Virus record (IMG/VR): IMGVR_UViG_3300020463_000172
Coordinates: 1-21,170 of that record
Strand: one strand, 5' to 3'
Source of the DNA: a virus
DNA length: 21,170 nt
The notes under the pieces: model-generated
The model's database searches: none
What the model was told of the DNA's origin: nothing
Seen by the model: the letters and a program-made list of their open reading frames with translations, nothing else
Position numbers and translations under genes: made by a program
Part shown: in pieces, positions 12,874 to 17,316 of the stretch
Layout: the number at the start of each line of letters is the position of its first letter
Position numbering within the stretch: position 1 is the stretch's first letter

Positions 12874-13875
12874 GTGGCAACATTATCAGGACAACCATTT
12901 GTAGGTAATTTAAATAGTTCGGTGCCAGGTAAACCAACTAATAAAGAACTAAGATATCCAAAAGATATCATAGCGGATAGTACTGACTACTTTAAAATTG
13001 AAGTATTAAAATACCCTAAAACAAAAACTAATGAGGGTGGTTTTGCTGATATAATGAAAGGTAATCTAATTAGCAATATAACAGCTAATGAAACCCATGA
13101 TGCATCTGTAGGTGCAGTAGCATCTAACACTATAATTTTACCAATACCAAGAAATATACAAGATCAAAATGGTGCTGGATGGAGAGAAGATAAATTAAAT
13201 GATTATAGTGCACTCCTTGCTCAGGGTGCTATGTCTATAATAGAATCACCAGCAATGGGTCTTAATGCACTGATGAATGCAAGAGCAGATGGTAAATCTG
13301 TTAAGAATGAAGCTGGTAAAGTCATTGGTGACACTATTACATCAGCGAGAGCACAATCAGTAGTAGATCTCATGAAGGCAAGGGCAGCAGCAGCAGTCTC
13401 AAACATTGCTGGTGGTAATGTAAGTGCTGAGGGTCTTAGAACCAGAGCAACTGGAACAATCGTCAATCAAAATACTGAATTACTATTCAATTCAGTTAAG
13501 ATGAGAGCGTTTGATTTTAGTTGGGATCTTGTTCCAAGAAGTGAAAATGAAGCACTTGAAGTTAAAAAGATCATTAAACTATTAAAGACAAGACTTGCTC
13601 CAAAAAATGACAGGAGCAGTCCATCAGGTTTCTTAAATAGTCCTGATATTTTTAGAATTTCATATATGAAAGGTGGTAATGCACATCCATTTCTAAATTC
13701 TTTTAAAGCATGTGCTCTATCTAATATGACAGTAAACTATACTGCATCTGGAACATATGCTACCTATGATAATGGAACACCAGTTCACATGAATATGAGT
13801 TTAAAATTTCAAGAACTCAACCCAATATATGCTGAAGATTATGGCAACGATTCACTTAAAGGGGTAGGATACTAA
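12874..13875 (+). CDS. 48: Baseplate tail-tube cap protein gp48
   Basis: 333 aa (T4 gp48 has 364). The diagnostic section is LLFNSVKMRAFDFSWDLVPR followed by SENEALEVKKIIKLLKTRLA (about 205-245), the tube-fold strand plus R-F-x-W-x-L-V-P-R-N-E-x-E-A-x-x-I-x-x-I-I helix shared by gp48-type proteins. After it come FRISYMKGGNAHPFLNSFKA and HMNMSLKFQELNPIYAEDYG. The middle is Ala-rich and helical (about 110-190). T4 gp48 caps the baseplate hub under gp54. It starts at GTG 12874; no ATG gives a full N-terminus and no clear Shine-Dalgarno sequence is seen. The stop overlaps the gp53 start (TAATG). Confidence 0.8.
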   Translation: MATLSGQPFVGNLNSSVPGKPTNKELRYPKDIIADSTDYFKIEVLKYPKTKTNEGGFADIMKGNLISNITANETHDASVGAVASNTIILPIPRNIQDQNGAGWREDKLNDYSALLAQGAMSIIESPAMGLNALMNARADGKSVKNEAGKVIGDTITSARAQSVVDLMKARAAAAVSNIAGGNVSAEGLRTRATGTIVNQNTELLFNSVKMRAFDFSWDLVPRSENEALEVKKIIKLLKTRLAPKNDRSSPSGFLNSPDIFRISYMKGGNAHPFLNSFKACALSNMTVNYTASGTYATYDNGTPVHMNMSLKFQELNPIYAEDYGNDSLKGVGY

Positions 13876-14504
13876 TGGCAAATCATTATTTTAAAAGTCT
13901 ACCAGACATACAGTACAGAAATCCACTCACTAATCTTGAGAATGACTATGTAACTGCTAAAAATTTATTTACTAGAGCAAAGGTAAGAGATGATGTTCTA
14001 ACAGCAGTAACTTTTCTAAGATCATATACTATTGAAGATGGTGAGAGACCAATGGATGTTGCTGAAACCATGTATGGTGATCCATTATATGATTGGGTTG
14101 TACTGGTAACTGCAAATATTATTAATGTTAGAAATGATTGGCCAATGAGCAGTAGAACATTATACAATTACTGTATTAATAAGTATGGTGGCGATTTAAA
14201 TGCTACAAAATACTATGAGACTACAGAGGTTAAGGATAATAATGGAAGATTAATTTTGGCATCAGGTTATAAAGTTGATAAATCATTTACTATTAGAGAC
14301 CCTGATTCGTTCAATATTAATCTTAACCCTGTTCTTGGTATTACAAATTTCTTAGATGAGACTAGGAATAATGAGAAGAAACGCAATATTAAACTAATGA
14401 GGAAAGAATTTCTAACTCAATTCTTACTAGACCACCAAGAAGCAGTAGAATATAAACTATCTTCACAATATCAATCTCGTACACTAAAGAAAGCTAACGG
14501 TTAA
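13875..14504 (+). CDS. 53: Baseplate wedge protein gp53
   Basis: 209 aa (T4 gp53 has 196). N-terminus MANHYFKSLPDIQYRNPLTN. Residues about 50-100 contain SYTIEDGERPMDVAETMYGD, PLYDWVVLVTANIINVRNDW and PMSSRTLYNYC, the LysM-like core and following segment of gp53. A basic C-terminus follows (NNEKKRNIKLMRKEFL). In T4, gp53 is the last wedge protein and lets the wedges associate around the hub. The start is coupled to the gp48 stop. The stop codon shares TTAA with the stop of the opposing 2OG oxygenase gene, leaving no room for a terminator between them. Confidence 0.9.
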   Translation: MANHYFKSLPDIQYRNPLTNLENDYVTAKNLFTRAKVRDDVLTAVTFLRSYTIEDGERPMDVAETMYGDPLYDWVVLVTANIINVRNDWPMSSRTLYNYCINKYGGDLNATKYYETTEVKDNNGRLILASGYKVDKSFTIRDPDSFNINLNPVLGITNFLDETRNNEKKRNIKLMRKEFLTQFLLDHQEAVEYKLSSQYQSRTLKKANG

Positions 14505-15106
14505 CGCAATTTAGGTCCACTTGCCCATCCAACTAGAACATACCGTACACCTTCTGTGACTGGTTGTGCTCTGTGTGGACATCTAGAATCAAATACAATA
14601 CACGCACCTAAAGGATTTGCAATCTGACAGTGTTTATTATAATAGTCTACAACAATTAACTCTCCACCCTTATAATCTTTAGGGTCAGAGAGTTGTACAC
14701 TCATTGATAATTTTCTCCAAACTTTTTTGTTAGGAGCAACACCATAGTCGCAATGCCAATCAAACTGACCACCAGAACGATACCTAAGGATTTGAAACTC
14801 AAAGGTATTGATATCAAACTGATAGTGTTTATGATTAACTACTTTAAATAAACTTTCTCCAATCATCTCAGGATCTGATCCTGTTTTTGGACAATGAACA
14901 TCACAAACTCTATAATCATCTTTCTCATACCCACTACATTTCTCAGGTATCCAATACTCATCCTCATTTGGTATAGTTTCAATATACCTGACTAACCTAC
15001 CTATTGCATCATCGTTCAATGCAAATAGATAAAAAGGATCTTCATGAGACCTATTCATGGTCTCATTATTCTCTGCTCTCTCACTGAGAGTTTTAGTTTT
15101 AACCAT
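14501..15106 (-). CDS. 2OG-Fe(II) oxygenase, prolyl-hydroxylase type
   Basis: 201 aa. The iron-binding facial triad is visible: His118 and Asp120 in GGQFDWHCDYG, and His178 in DSRCPHRAQPV; Arg188 in TEGVRYVLVGWASGP is the likely 2-oxoglutarate carboxylate ligand. Between these lie LSMSVQLSDPKDYKGGELIV, typical of PiuC/P4H-like jelly rolls. Such enzymes are frequent in cyanophage genomes; substrate unknown (protein side chain or nucleic acid). ATG 15106 overlaps the preceding stop (TAATG). It is third in a late operon behind two small proteins that look structural, so modification of a virion protein is one possibility. The 3' end overlaps the gp53 gene tail-to-tail. Confidence 0.85.
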   Translation of the reverse strand: MVKTKTLSERAENNETMNRSHEDPFYLFALNDDAIGRLVRYIETIPNEDEYWIPEKCSGYEKDDYRVCDVHCPKTGSDPEMIGESLFKVVNHKHYQFDINTFEFQILRYRSGGQFDWHCDYGVAPNKKVWRKLSMSVQLSDPKDYKGGELIVVDYYNKHCQIANPLGACIVFDSRCPHRAQPVTEGVRYVLVGWASGPKLR

Positions 15107-15510
15107 TACAATAGTGCTTCAAGTTGTGATACAGAAGTAGCGTTAGTGATTGTTGAATAAGGCACTGAAGGATTTGATTTAAGTGATGCAGACTCTCCCT
15201 TCATGTCTGCTACTGTTTGTATATCTGCGTTTTCTTTTGATATGGCAAGATATTTTGCCTCTAAAATTTCTGTTGTTATTGTTTTTGCATCAGCAAGTTC
15301 TGCAATAACATTCTTACTATCATGATAATACTTCCATGATGCTCTAAATGCCGTGTTTGGTAAACTTGAAGCATCTATTAAAGAATACTCTGAAGCAGAG
15401 ATATCCTTTGTAATGATGGCATCATCAGATAGAGCACAATCCACTGTTGGGATTACTACTCTACATTTACCACTAGCGTCATTATAGACTATGACTTTAT
15501 CTCGTGCCAT
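15106..15510 (-). CDS. Hypothetical protein, probably late
   Basis: 134 aa. N-terminal part: VIVYNDASGKCRVVIPTVDC then a Y-S-L-I-D-A-S-S-L-P-N-T-A-F-R-A-S-W-K-Y segment. The pattern of a short nucleotide-free beta strand followed by an L-P-x-x-x-x-F-R-x-A-W motif is widespread in small phage proteins encoded near tail genes, sometimes annotated as tail-fibre assembly or unknown. The rest is Ala/Ser-rich and helical (DAKTITTEILEAKYLAISKE). Coupled by TAATG overlaps on both sides. Function not recognised. Confidence 0.7.
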   Translation of the reverse strand: MARDKVIVYNDASGKCRVVIPTVDCALSDDAIITKDISASEYSLIDASSLPNTAFRASWKYYHDSKNVIAELADAKTITTEILEAKYLAISKENADIQTVADMKGESASLKSNPSVPYSTITNATSVSQLEALL

Positions 15511-15680
15511 TATGAGTTAGCTGCTGTTGCCACTACTATACTTTGTGCCCAAGGATATGCAGTTGTGATCTTAGATCTAGCATCTGCATCATCTTTAGCA
15601 TAGATATCAACCTTTGTTGTGTTAGCATTGTTGCCATCATCAAAAGTTGCTATGTAATGGTCTCCTTTGTATGCTGCCAT
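15510..15680 (-). CDS. Small hypothetical protein, first gene after a late promoter
   Basis: 56 aa: MAAYKGDHYIATFDDGNNAN, TTKVDIYAKDDADARSKITT, AYPWAQSIVVATAANS. ATG 15680 is preceded by AAGG at 8 nt (TAAGGTAGAACAATG). The stop overlaps the next start (TAATG). Alternating strands and a D-A-x-A-R-x-K-I helix suggest one small alpha/beta domain. It is the first gene downstream of the terminator and TATAAATA, so expected to be a late, possibly virion-associated, protein. No family recognised. Confidence 0.75.
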   Translation of the reverse strand: MAAYKGDHYIATFDDGNNANTTKVDIYAKDDADARSKITTAYPWAQSIVVATAANS

Positions 15681-15700
15681 TGTTCTACCTTAAATTGTAC

Positions 15701-15725
15701 AAAAAAGAGGGAGATAACTCCCTCT
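15701..15725 (-). terminator. Rho-independent terminator after gp32
   Basis: On the minus strand AGAGGGAG, loop TTAT, CTCCCTCT: a perfect 8-bp stem with a 4-nt loop directly followed by a T run. It lies 10 nt after the gp32 stop codon and should end early/middle transcription of the replication genes. Confidence 0.9.
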
Positions 15726-15727
15726 GT

Positions 15728-15735
15728 TATTTATA
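15728..15735 (-). promoter_or_regulatory. T4-type late promoter TATAAATA
   Basis: Exact TATAAATA on the minus strand, directly after the gp32 stop codon. A start about 6 nt downstream would fall near 15722, inside the 5' arm of the terminator, so late transcripts would lack part of the stem. It would drive the 56-aa, 134-aa and 2OG oxygenase genes. Late promoters of this type need gp55/gp33 and the clamp. Confidence 0.7.
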
Positions 15736-16605
15736 TTATTCCTCAGCAAGACGCTGGAAATATGAAAGTGCATCATCACCTTCTGCTGTAGCAGGAGAGA
15801 CTGCAACCTCTTCACGACCATTATCTTCATCAATCAATTCCTCTTCTTGTCTCCTTTGCACTGGTGCAGGAGTAAGTTTTAGAACTGAATCAAGACGCTT
15901 TTTAAGGTCGTCATATGATTTGAATTGATCAGTAGAAACAAGTTCTGCAAGAGAATGTTCCTTCTTCCACAATGCTTCTAGAGCATCATCATCTTTAAGT
16001 AATGGACTGACTGCAGCAAACTCAGAACTATCATAGTTCCAATATCCTGCAACTTTTTTGATTTTAATCTTAAAATCTGCACCTTGCCAGAAATCGAATG
16101 GATTGAGAGGTGTCTCATCCTCAAATTCTGGTTGCATTGCACCCATGATCTTATCAAAGATCTTCTTTCCAAATTTGTATAGGAATACTCCACCTTCATT
16201 AGAAGGATTGGAAGGGTCTTTTACAACATAGATGTTGGCATAGTAAGATAGTTTACGCTTCTGCTTACGAGCAATTTCTTTATCAGAATCAACTCCACTA
16301 TTCCACAGTTGAGTATTGTACTCAGATACAGGATCCTTACCATTTAGTGTAGTCAAACTGTTCTCAATGTACCAACCACCTGGTCCTTGAAATGCATGAG
16401 AATACATTTTTACCCAAGGTAGATCTTCACCATCTGGTGCTGGTAGGAAGCGAACAACAGCATAACCGTTACCTGCTTTATCTACCTCTGGTTTCCAGAG
16501 ACGATCATCTCCTTGATTAGGTGAATTGGACTTCTCTACCTCTTTAATGAGTTTAGCAGTCAGACTGCCAAGAGAAGATTGTTTTTTGAGTGATGCGAAC
16601 GACAT
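15736..16605 (-). CDS. 32: Single-stranded DNA-binding protein gp32
   Basis: 289 aa (T4 gp32 has 301). N-terminal basic cooperativity segment with a LAST-like SLGSLTAKLIK; core: NGYAVVRFLPAPDGEDLPWV, MYSHAFQGPGGWYIENSLTT, KLSYYANIYVVKDPSNPSNE, GGVFLYKFGKKIFDKIMGAM, WQGADFKIKIKKVAGYWNYD; helical tail TDQFKSYDDLKKRLDSVL; acidic C-terminus ending QRLAEE. It coats ssDNA in replication and recombination and recruits partners by its acidic tail. Odd: the protein has no cysteine at all, so the T4 zinc site (His64, Cys77, Cys87, Cys90) is lost; the region reads NGKDPVSEYNTQLW in place of the C-x-x-C. Expressed from its own sigma70-type promoter; AAAGG ribosome site lies within a duplicated leader element. 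A terminator follows. Confidence 0.95.
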   Translation of the reverse strand: MSFASLKKQSSLGSLTAKLIKEVEKSNSPNQGDDRLWKPEVDKAGNGYAVVRFLPAPDGEDLPWVKMYSHAFQGPGGWYIENSLTTLNGKDPVSEYNTQLWNSGVDSDKEIARKQKRKLSYYANIYVVKDPSNPSNEGGVFLYKFGKKIFDKIMGAMQPEFEDETPLNPFDFWQGADFKIKIKKVAGYWNYDSSEFAAVSPLLKDDDALEALWKKEHSLAELVSTDQFKSYDDLKKRLDSVLKLTPAPVQRRQEEELIDEDNGREEVAVSPATAEGDDALSYFQRLAEE

Positions 16606-16648: not shown

Positions 16649-16677
16649 ATTATAGGGCGACAGTGCTCCCATGTCAA
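16649..16677 (-). promoter_or_regulatory. Perfect consensus sigma70 promoter for gp32
   Basis: Minus strand TTGACA (16677-16672), 17-bp spacer, TATAAT (16654-16649). Every consensus base is matched and the spacing is optimal. A start near 16642 would give a leader of about 37 nt before the gp32 ATG. The -35 box directly abuts the stop codon of the upstream DUF1825-like gene (stop at 16680-16678). Confidence 0.9.
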
Positions 16678-17016
16678 CTATTGTCTCTCTGGTAAACCCT
16701 CTCTAACCTTTTCTAGGGTTTTTCTCATATTTTGAAATAGAATATTACAATCAACATCTTTTGGGAAACCCATTACAATTGCAGAATCTCTTACATTCTG
16801 TGCTATTTCTTTAGCACGAGGATCATCAGATAGTTTCATACGAGTATAAAGTACCTGTTGCCTTTCAAGCAAATCATCTAGCATATCTAAATGCTCTATT
16901 TGATCATCAAGATGAAGTTCTGGAAATTTAAACACCTGCGAATAAATCTCCTCTTGCATCTCATTGATTGTTTCCATCTCATCTTTAACAATATCGCTAT
17001 CGAAAAAATCTGACAT
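16678..17016 (-). CDS. DUF1825-like protein of cyanobacteria and cyanophages
   Basis: 112 aa, helical and acidic: MSDFFDSDIVKDEMETINEM, then DQIEHLDMLDDLLERQQVLY, TRMKLSDDPRAKEIAQ, MGFPKDVDCNILFQNMRKTL. The F-F-D-S-x-I-V-x-x-E start, the E-x-L-x-x-R-x-x-x-x-x-R-x-x-L-S-x-D-x-x-A middle and the F-x-x-M-x-x-T-L-E end resemble the cyanobacterial DUF1825 family, function unknown. No signal peptide. It has a GAGGA ribosome site (ACGAGGAAAATTTATG) and a separate 45-nt upstream gap carrying promoter-like elements. It lies between the gp33-like and gp32 genes, which suggests a role in replication or in the switch to late transcription. Confidence 0.65.
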   Translation of the reverse strand: MSDFFDSDIVKDEMETINEMQEEIYSQVFKFPELHLDDQIEHLDMLDDLLERQQVLYTRMKLSDDPRAKEIAQNVRDSAIVMGFPKDVDCNILFQNMRKTLEKVREGLPERQ

Positions 17017-17039: not shown

Positions 17040-17066
17040 TATTTATGTTTATTATAGCATATTATA
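17040..17066 (-). promoter_or_regulatory. Possible promoters before the DUF1825-like gene
   Basis: The gap holds two TATAAT hexamers on the minus strand (17066-17061 and 17056-17051) and CATAAATA (17047-17040), one mismatch from the late consensus. No good -35 box is visible for either hexamer. It is one of the few true gaps in the early block, so some promoter activity here is plausible. Confidence 0.4.
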
Positions 17067-17316
17067 GAGGAAGTTTTGCTCTAGTAGTCTTCTTCATAAA
17101 GTTTAATTGTTGAGCATCCCATTTGATTTTTTCTTTTAAAGGTTTAGAAATTAATTTAGTAATTGAATCCAATTCAATACTATTTTCATCACAAAATAGT
17201 ATGATTGCATCAATATAATTAAGTTTCTCTTTTTTAACAAGTTTTTCAATCTCTACTGCAAATTTAGCAGAGTTCATAAATTTCTTATTAAGTGCTGTTG
17301 TGAATTCATTTTCCAT
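17062..17316 (-). CDS. 33: Late transcription co-activator, gp33-like
   Basis: 84 aa. Pattern FAVEIEKLVKKEKLNYIDAI, LFCDENSIELDSITKLISKP, LKEKIKWDAQQLNFMKKTTR, AKLPL. This E-I-E-K-L-V...Y-I-D-A-I-L-x-x-C-E-x-N-x-I-E layout with a hydrophobic C-terminus after a basic stretch is the form of small proteins annotated as late-promoter accessory protein (gp33) in cyanophages and pelagiphages. T4 gp33 binds the RNA polymerase beta flap and the sliding clamp through a hydrophobic/acidic C-terminal motif. It starts inside the end of the exonuclease gene (11-nt overlap). The window's late-promoter motif at 15728-15735 is a plausible target of the complex. Confidence 0.7.
   Translation of the reverse strand: MENEFTTALNKKFMNSAKFAVEIEKLVKKEKLNYIDAIILFCDENSIELDSITKLISKPLKEKIKWDAQQLNFMKKTTRAKLPL

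Follow-up and report, generated by a model that had tools for sequence, protein, structure and literature searches.

In phage T4, genes e, soc, 49 and I-TevI are known for an inhibitory hairpin that is present in their early transcripts and inside which their late transcripts start (PMC3014915, PMC2988022). T4-type late promoters, which are served by gp55, gp33 and gp45, carry the motif TATAAATA at positions -13 to -6 (PMC1524935) and are AT-rich directly after it (PMC2988020); the form found in S-PM2 is NATAAATA, the published cyanophage late motif (PMC2984593). Our window, a 21-kb fragment (21,170 nucleotides), is taken from the record of a T4-like marine phage, a member of a clade of uncultured T4-like marine phages, probably cyanophages. 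Behind its gp32 gene, a late promoter motif likewise stands in or against the 5' arm of a hairpin, and transcripts from upstream would carry the hairpin while late ones would not. However, the T4 hairpins cover the ribosome-binding site or the AUG and block translation, whereas the hairpin at the gp32 junction has a T-run, lies 25 nt before the next ATG and should stop transcription. Judged from its layout, the junction seems to work like the e/49 arrangement yet is no member of it, because its stem leaves the ribosome site uncovered.

All elements of the junction lie on the minus strand. The gp32 homologue, a single-stranded DNA-binding protein of 289 aa (15736..16605; PF08804, 3e-44; phrog_224, 3.3e-120), ends with TAA at 15738-15736, and an exact TATAAATA follows at 15728..15735, 55 nt 5' of the start of a 55-aa gene, the first of a downstream cassette. 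After the spacer AC (15727-15726) comes a perfect 8-bp hairpin (15706..15725) made of the 5' arm AGAGGGAG (15725-15718), the loop TTAT (15717-15714) and the 3' arm CTCCCTCT (15713-15706), with a T-run at 15701..15705 (six T counting 15706). The whole 55-nt spacer between the two genes reads TATAAATA-AC-AGAGGGAG-TTAT-CTCCCTCT-TTTTTG and then runs on to the ATG at 15680. The initial annotation had given this motif, spacer, hairpin and T-run exactly, both in coordinates and in description. It had also proposed that a late start falls within the first hairpin arm, and this agrees with the T4 spacing: taking the motif at -13 to -6 (PMC1524935), +1 is the sixth base after the motif, which puts the predicted start at G15722, the fourth base of the 5' arm. 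The distance from the gp32 stop codon to the stem is 10 nt in the window and 7-11 nt in relatives; a ribosome at this stop codon could impede folding of the hairpin and make termination dependent on gp32 translation.

In order to compare the same junction in related phages, as the initial annotation had suggested, we collected 42 loci with the 134-aa protein encoded by the second cassette gene and read upstream of its gene. In 25 of them gp32 lies directly before the 55-aa gene, and all 25 have both TATAAATA and the hairpin. The other 17, not every one of which includes gp32, carry some other gene in this place (L097 and L115 a carbamoyltransferase, L089 a 2OG oxygenase), and none of them has the hairpin, whereas [G/C]ATAAATA (GATAAATA or CATAAATA) is kept at the 55-aa gene in 16 and replaced by CTAAATA in one. 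The loci are akin, and 25 versus 17 is to be read as a strong pattern and not as 42 independent events. Because the hairpin is present with gp32 next door and absent otherwise while the motif is kept, the hairpin belongs to the gp32 3' end and the promoter motif to the cassette. As a separate observation, L097, L115 and similar loci have the carbamoyltransferase gene (PF02543/PF16861) inserted immediately behind gp32, whose stop codon it overlaps, and in front of this cassette.

The geometry is conserved as closely as the elements themselves. Counting each distinct sequence once, motif and hairpin are kept in 22 junctions and 14 elements of 45 nt, and this conservation, together with the natural comparison of 25 with 17 sister loci, rules out a chance overlap of the two. 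Measured from the motif end, the 22 distinct junctions all have their stem start at -1 to +3 nt and their predicted late start within the 5' arm, and the motif-to-ATG distance exceeds that of the hairpin-less loci by about 20 nt, which equals the hairpin length. Five arm sequences occur (AGAGGGAG, AAGAGGGA, GAGAGGGA, AGGGAGG and GGAGAGG), each paired with its own complement. These complementary changes were read directly off the junction sequences, as a MAFFT alignment of the elements left the arms out of register; a pattern search limited to purine arms was too narrow and gained nothing.

On its conservation and on motif enrichment, TATAAATA at the junction is very probably the late promoter of the cassette. 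Its count in the window is one, against 2.6 expected in shuffles, so the number is not enriched and the position is what matters. In the clade set no 7-mer is more enriched upstream of genes than ATAAATA (7 against 0.22 expected), and it also ranks first in G002+G003, P-SSM2, S-PM2 and T4; in the relatives exact TATAAATA is mostly intergenic, with many copies 13-55 nt 5' of a gene start. A late factor is encoded within the fragment, 1.3 kb upstream, namely a homologue of gene 33, the late-transcription coactivator (17062..17316, minus strand; PF16805, 2.3e-28; phrog_254). With T4-type late promoters the junction shares the exact motif, the nearby gene 33 homologue and the enrichment upstream of genes, but its start is a predicted one and the segment after the motif is GC-rich, with 5-6 G+C in 10 nt against mostly 1-4 at other late motifs. 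The AT-rich segment after the T4 late motif is a trend and no strict requirement; still, the GC-rich segment suggests that the promoter may be weak. This composition, like the lack of over-representation in the window, would also suit a real terminator accompanied by a chance match to TATAAATA, with the cassette read through or started elsewhere; we hold this to be highly improbable, since all 25 loci conserve the motif, and since NATAAATA stands at the 55-aa gene in 16 of the 17 loci with a differing neighbour.

The hairpin, for its part, is very probably the gp32 terminator. It is the strongest terminator-like match in the window (8 bp, 5 GC, loop of 4, T-run), and it shares with the intrinsic terminators of T4-like phages the GC-rich perfect stem, the 4-nt loop, the T-run and the position directly after the upstream gene; P-SSM2 also has a terminator after gp32. 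What differs is the order, as near late motifs the terminator usually comes before the promoter, whereas here the promoter stands before the stem and reaches into it. Across the relatives the whole stem measures 7-10 bp and -10.6 to -15.2 kcal/mol, with a T-run directly after nearly all copies, and an RNA starting at the predicted +1 would keep -4.5 to -8.3 kcal/mol. In the window 3 bp would be lost, leaving a predicted residual stem of 5 bp (-8.3 kcal/mol) followed by the U-rich UCUUUUUU; the predicted residual stem is 6 bp in L084-L087, stronger than that of the window and still beside a U-rich stretch, and 3-4 bp in other relatives. The full-stem energy stays within its range while arm sequences and residual stem vary, from which it appears that the hairpin is under selection as a whole.

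These measurements also bear on two other roles that could be given to the stem. The first, that the hairpin is a stabilising structure in the 5' leader of the late mRNA and no terminator, would fit the 3-6 bp of stem that the predicted start leaves close to or right at the 5' end of this RNA, but it is the full stem length that is conserved and not the residual one, nearly all copies run into T, and the same genes carry a late motif and no hairpin in 16 sister loci, so we regard this role as quite improbable. A block of translation at the ribosome site has next to no chance, even though a late start inside a hairpin is just the arrangement of genes e, 49 and I-TevI (PMC3014915, PMC2988022); the stem, which ends 25 nt 5' of the ATG of the 55-aa gene, includes neither Shine-Dalgarno nor start codon in any relative, and this role was discarded on position.

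It had further been proposed that late transcripts, carrying a shortened stem, could pass the hairpin. The predicted start does fall in the 5' arm everywhere, but shortening alone gives no assurance of passage, given residual stems of 5-6 bp beside a U-rich stretch; by its predicted fold, the one in the window still resembles a weak terminator. Escape of late transcripts past the residual stem is plausible from the sequences, and the case for it appears better in relatives losing 4-6 bp than in the window.

The next question is which transcripts would meet the whole hairpin. gp32 has a sigma-70 type promoter, TTGACA-17-TATAAT (16649..16677, minus strand), which matches at 12 of 12 positions; its hexamers are identical in 25 of 25 loci compared, with a spacer of 17 or 18. 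Several relatives have a GC-rich dyad between these hexamers, for example AGAGCATGACTGCTCT in L105, and a repeated GCCAAATC is seen in the leader before the gp32 ATG; the dyad or the repeats could possibly be an operator or autoregulatory site. Further upstream, CATAAATA at 17040..17047 (minus strand) is a putative late promoter of the DUF1825 gene. NATAAATA stands 16-31 nt 5' of this gene, about 1.3 kb upstream of the junction and in the same direction. It does so in the window and in the majority of clade loci, while L011 and L012 have CTAAATA in its place. A TATAAT just upstream of CATAAATA (17040-17060, minus strand) makes a stack of early and late promoter-like motifs feeding gp32, and this stack is kept in most relatives.

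With a late motif upstream of both DUF1825 and gp32, late transcripts that come through gp32 should therefore form the whole hairpin and stop as well. The label of an early terminator in the initial annotation does not fit this result, and its reading of an early-off/late-on junction stands by half: the restart would be late-specific, but the stop would be general, for every transcript from upstream. A terminator for all upstream transcripts combined with a late restart is, on the motifs present, the better reading.

We consider it probable that two elements overlap at the junction, an intrinsic terminator for gp32 and the late promoter of the following unit (the 55-aa, 134-aa and 2OG oxygenase genes), and that the start of the latter truncates the stem so that late transcripts pass. 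Polymerase arriving from upstream, having started at the sigma-70 promoter before gp32 or at the early or late motif before DUF1825, would copy the inverted repeat in full, and this transcript would be ended near 15700 by the RNA hairpin and its U-run. Polymerase with the late factors would start at about 15722, inside the 5' arm, and its RNA would be without 2-6 bp at the stem base (3 bp in the window), the part that abuts the U-run. With the stem base missing, termination would be reduced, and the cassette is proposed to be transcribed late. Against this reading, the sister phages manage with no terminator at all from gp32 (plus carbamoyltransferase) to the cassette, and the separation is therefore not essential.

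In order to see how rare the overlap is, we surveyed other phages. Among 8 isolate genomes and the relatives scanned, no exact TATAAATA outside this junction had a terminator hairpin over its predicted start. For the shorter motif, 256 intergenic NATAAATA sites in 14 phage sets had a terminator-like hairpin within 70 nt upstream in 12 cases and downstream in 8. In 6 of the 8 downstream cases the hairpin start lies at -1 to +3 nt relative to the motif; these six are this junction twice, T4 gene 49, S-PM2 115169, P-SSM2 143376 and RB49 102787. ATAAATA is the commonest of 21 same-composition permutations directly before terminators (6 against 4 for the next), a modest excess, as several of the other words overlap ATAAATA. 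The blind scan recovered the known T4 cases e and 49, and the scan for exact TATAAATA independently picked gene e.

The survey bears on whether the overlap is mere compaction. In that case promoter and terminator would both be real, but the truncation would play no role; the late RNA would pass since its stem is located at the extreme 5' end, or since the late polymerase takes no notice of it. The intergenic space of just 55 nt in the window and the predicted residual stems of up to 6 bp in some relatives would agree with this explanation. However, a terminator followed by a promoter needs nearly equal space and is the commoner order (among the 256 motifs 12 upstream against 8 downstream, the latter including this junction twice), and 6 of these 8 begin within the narrow range of -1 to +3 nt from the motif and not just anywhere, which makes compaction unlikely.

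Two of the recovered sites turned out to be of another kind. At S-PM2 115169-115200 (L249), GATAAATA lies against ACCTCC-ATAT-GGAGGT over the Shine-Dalgarno of p152; since this hairpin covers the Shine-Dalgarno, the site is of gene e type and looks like a late-escape hairpin in a cyanophage. The nested case at P-SSM2 143376 (purL/hsp20) was rejected as probably a stop-codon overlap, because the phage-shared sequence upstream of hsp20 begins after the terminator.

The RB49-type uvsW/uvsW.1 junction, seen in RB49, AV108, JK32 and Eco09, comes closer to the gp32 junction (L250, RB49, about 985-1010; also L253, L254 and L256). Here a stop codon overlaps AATAAATA, directly followed by an AGGGGC hairpin and a T-rich tail, and across the four phages the loops have changed while the hairpin is conserved and the Shine-Dalgarno lies uncovered. 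It is therefore a second candidate of the same kind, in coliphage. Both junctions share the layout of stop codon, motif, hairpin and T-rich stretch; the RB49 type differs in that its genes are unrelated and that its predicted start lies at the end of the 5' arm, which would remove the whole arm, and late use of the motif is putative there too.

We tentatively propose, as a possibility about which we remain doubtful, that a late promoter in the 5' arm of a terminator is a stable, selected stop-and-restart element, in which upstream transcripts stop and only late ones pass as the promoter position removes their own stem base, and that it has arisen more than once (the gp32 junction and RB49-type uvsW) as an analogue of the gene e switch that acts on transcription. 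In the literature that we searched, which took in few subscription journals, we found no description of a T4-like phage with a late promoter set into a terminator. If the proposal is true, 35 bases would do two jobs by geometry alone, namely end the upstream transcript and, at a different time, start the unit that follows, with no termination regulator involved. The T4 principle, in which starting late rids the transcript of one arm of its inhibitory hairpin, would extend from translation to transcription termination. Phage terminator and promoter predictions could then not be treated as separate elements, the junction would be a simple part for compact genome building, and RB49 would provide a laboratory case in E. 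coli.

The surrounding gene order on the minus strand is gene 33, with exonuclease and PhoH further up, then DUF1825 (16678-17016), gp32 and the cassette. The latter consists of the 55-aa gene (MAAYKGDHY...; 15516..15680), the 134-aa gene (15106..15510) and a 201-aa 2OG-Fe(II) oxygenase gene (14501..15106; PF13640, 2.1e-15; phrog_61), which converges with gp53 (13875-14504, plus strand). In P-SSM2, S-SM2 and S-SCSM1 the gene directly after gp32 is the convergent gp53 or another baseplate wedge gene, and on this ground the three same-strand genes form a cassette between gp32 and gp53 in the clade. The 55-aa and 134-aa proteins belong to no known family and had no match in Pfam, PHROGs or 50,697 phage records; these orphan genes (15106-15680, minus strand) are conserved in uncultured marine viral contigs without an isolate relative, and the relatives of the 134-aa protein occur only in such contigs. 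Within the 2OG oxygenase gene, after the convergent gp53, there are three plus-strand terminator-like hairpins (14869-15091), which could end the gp4-gp48-gp53 transcript.
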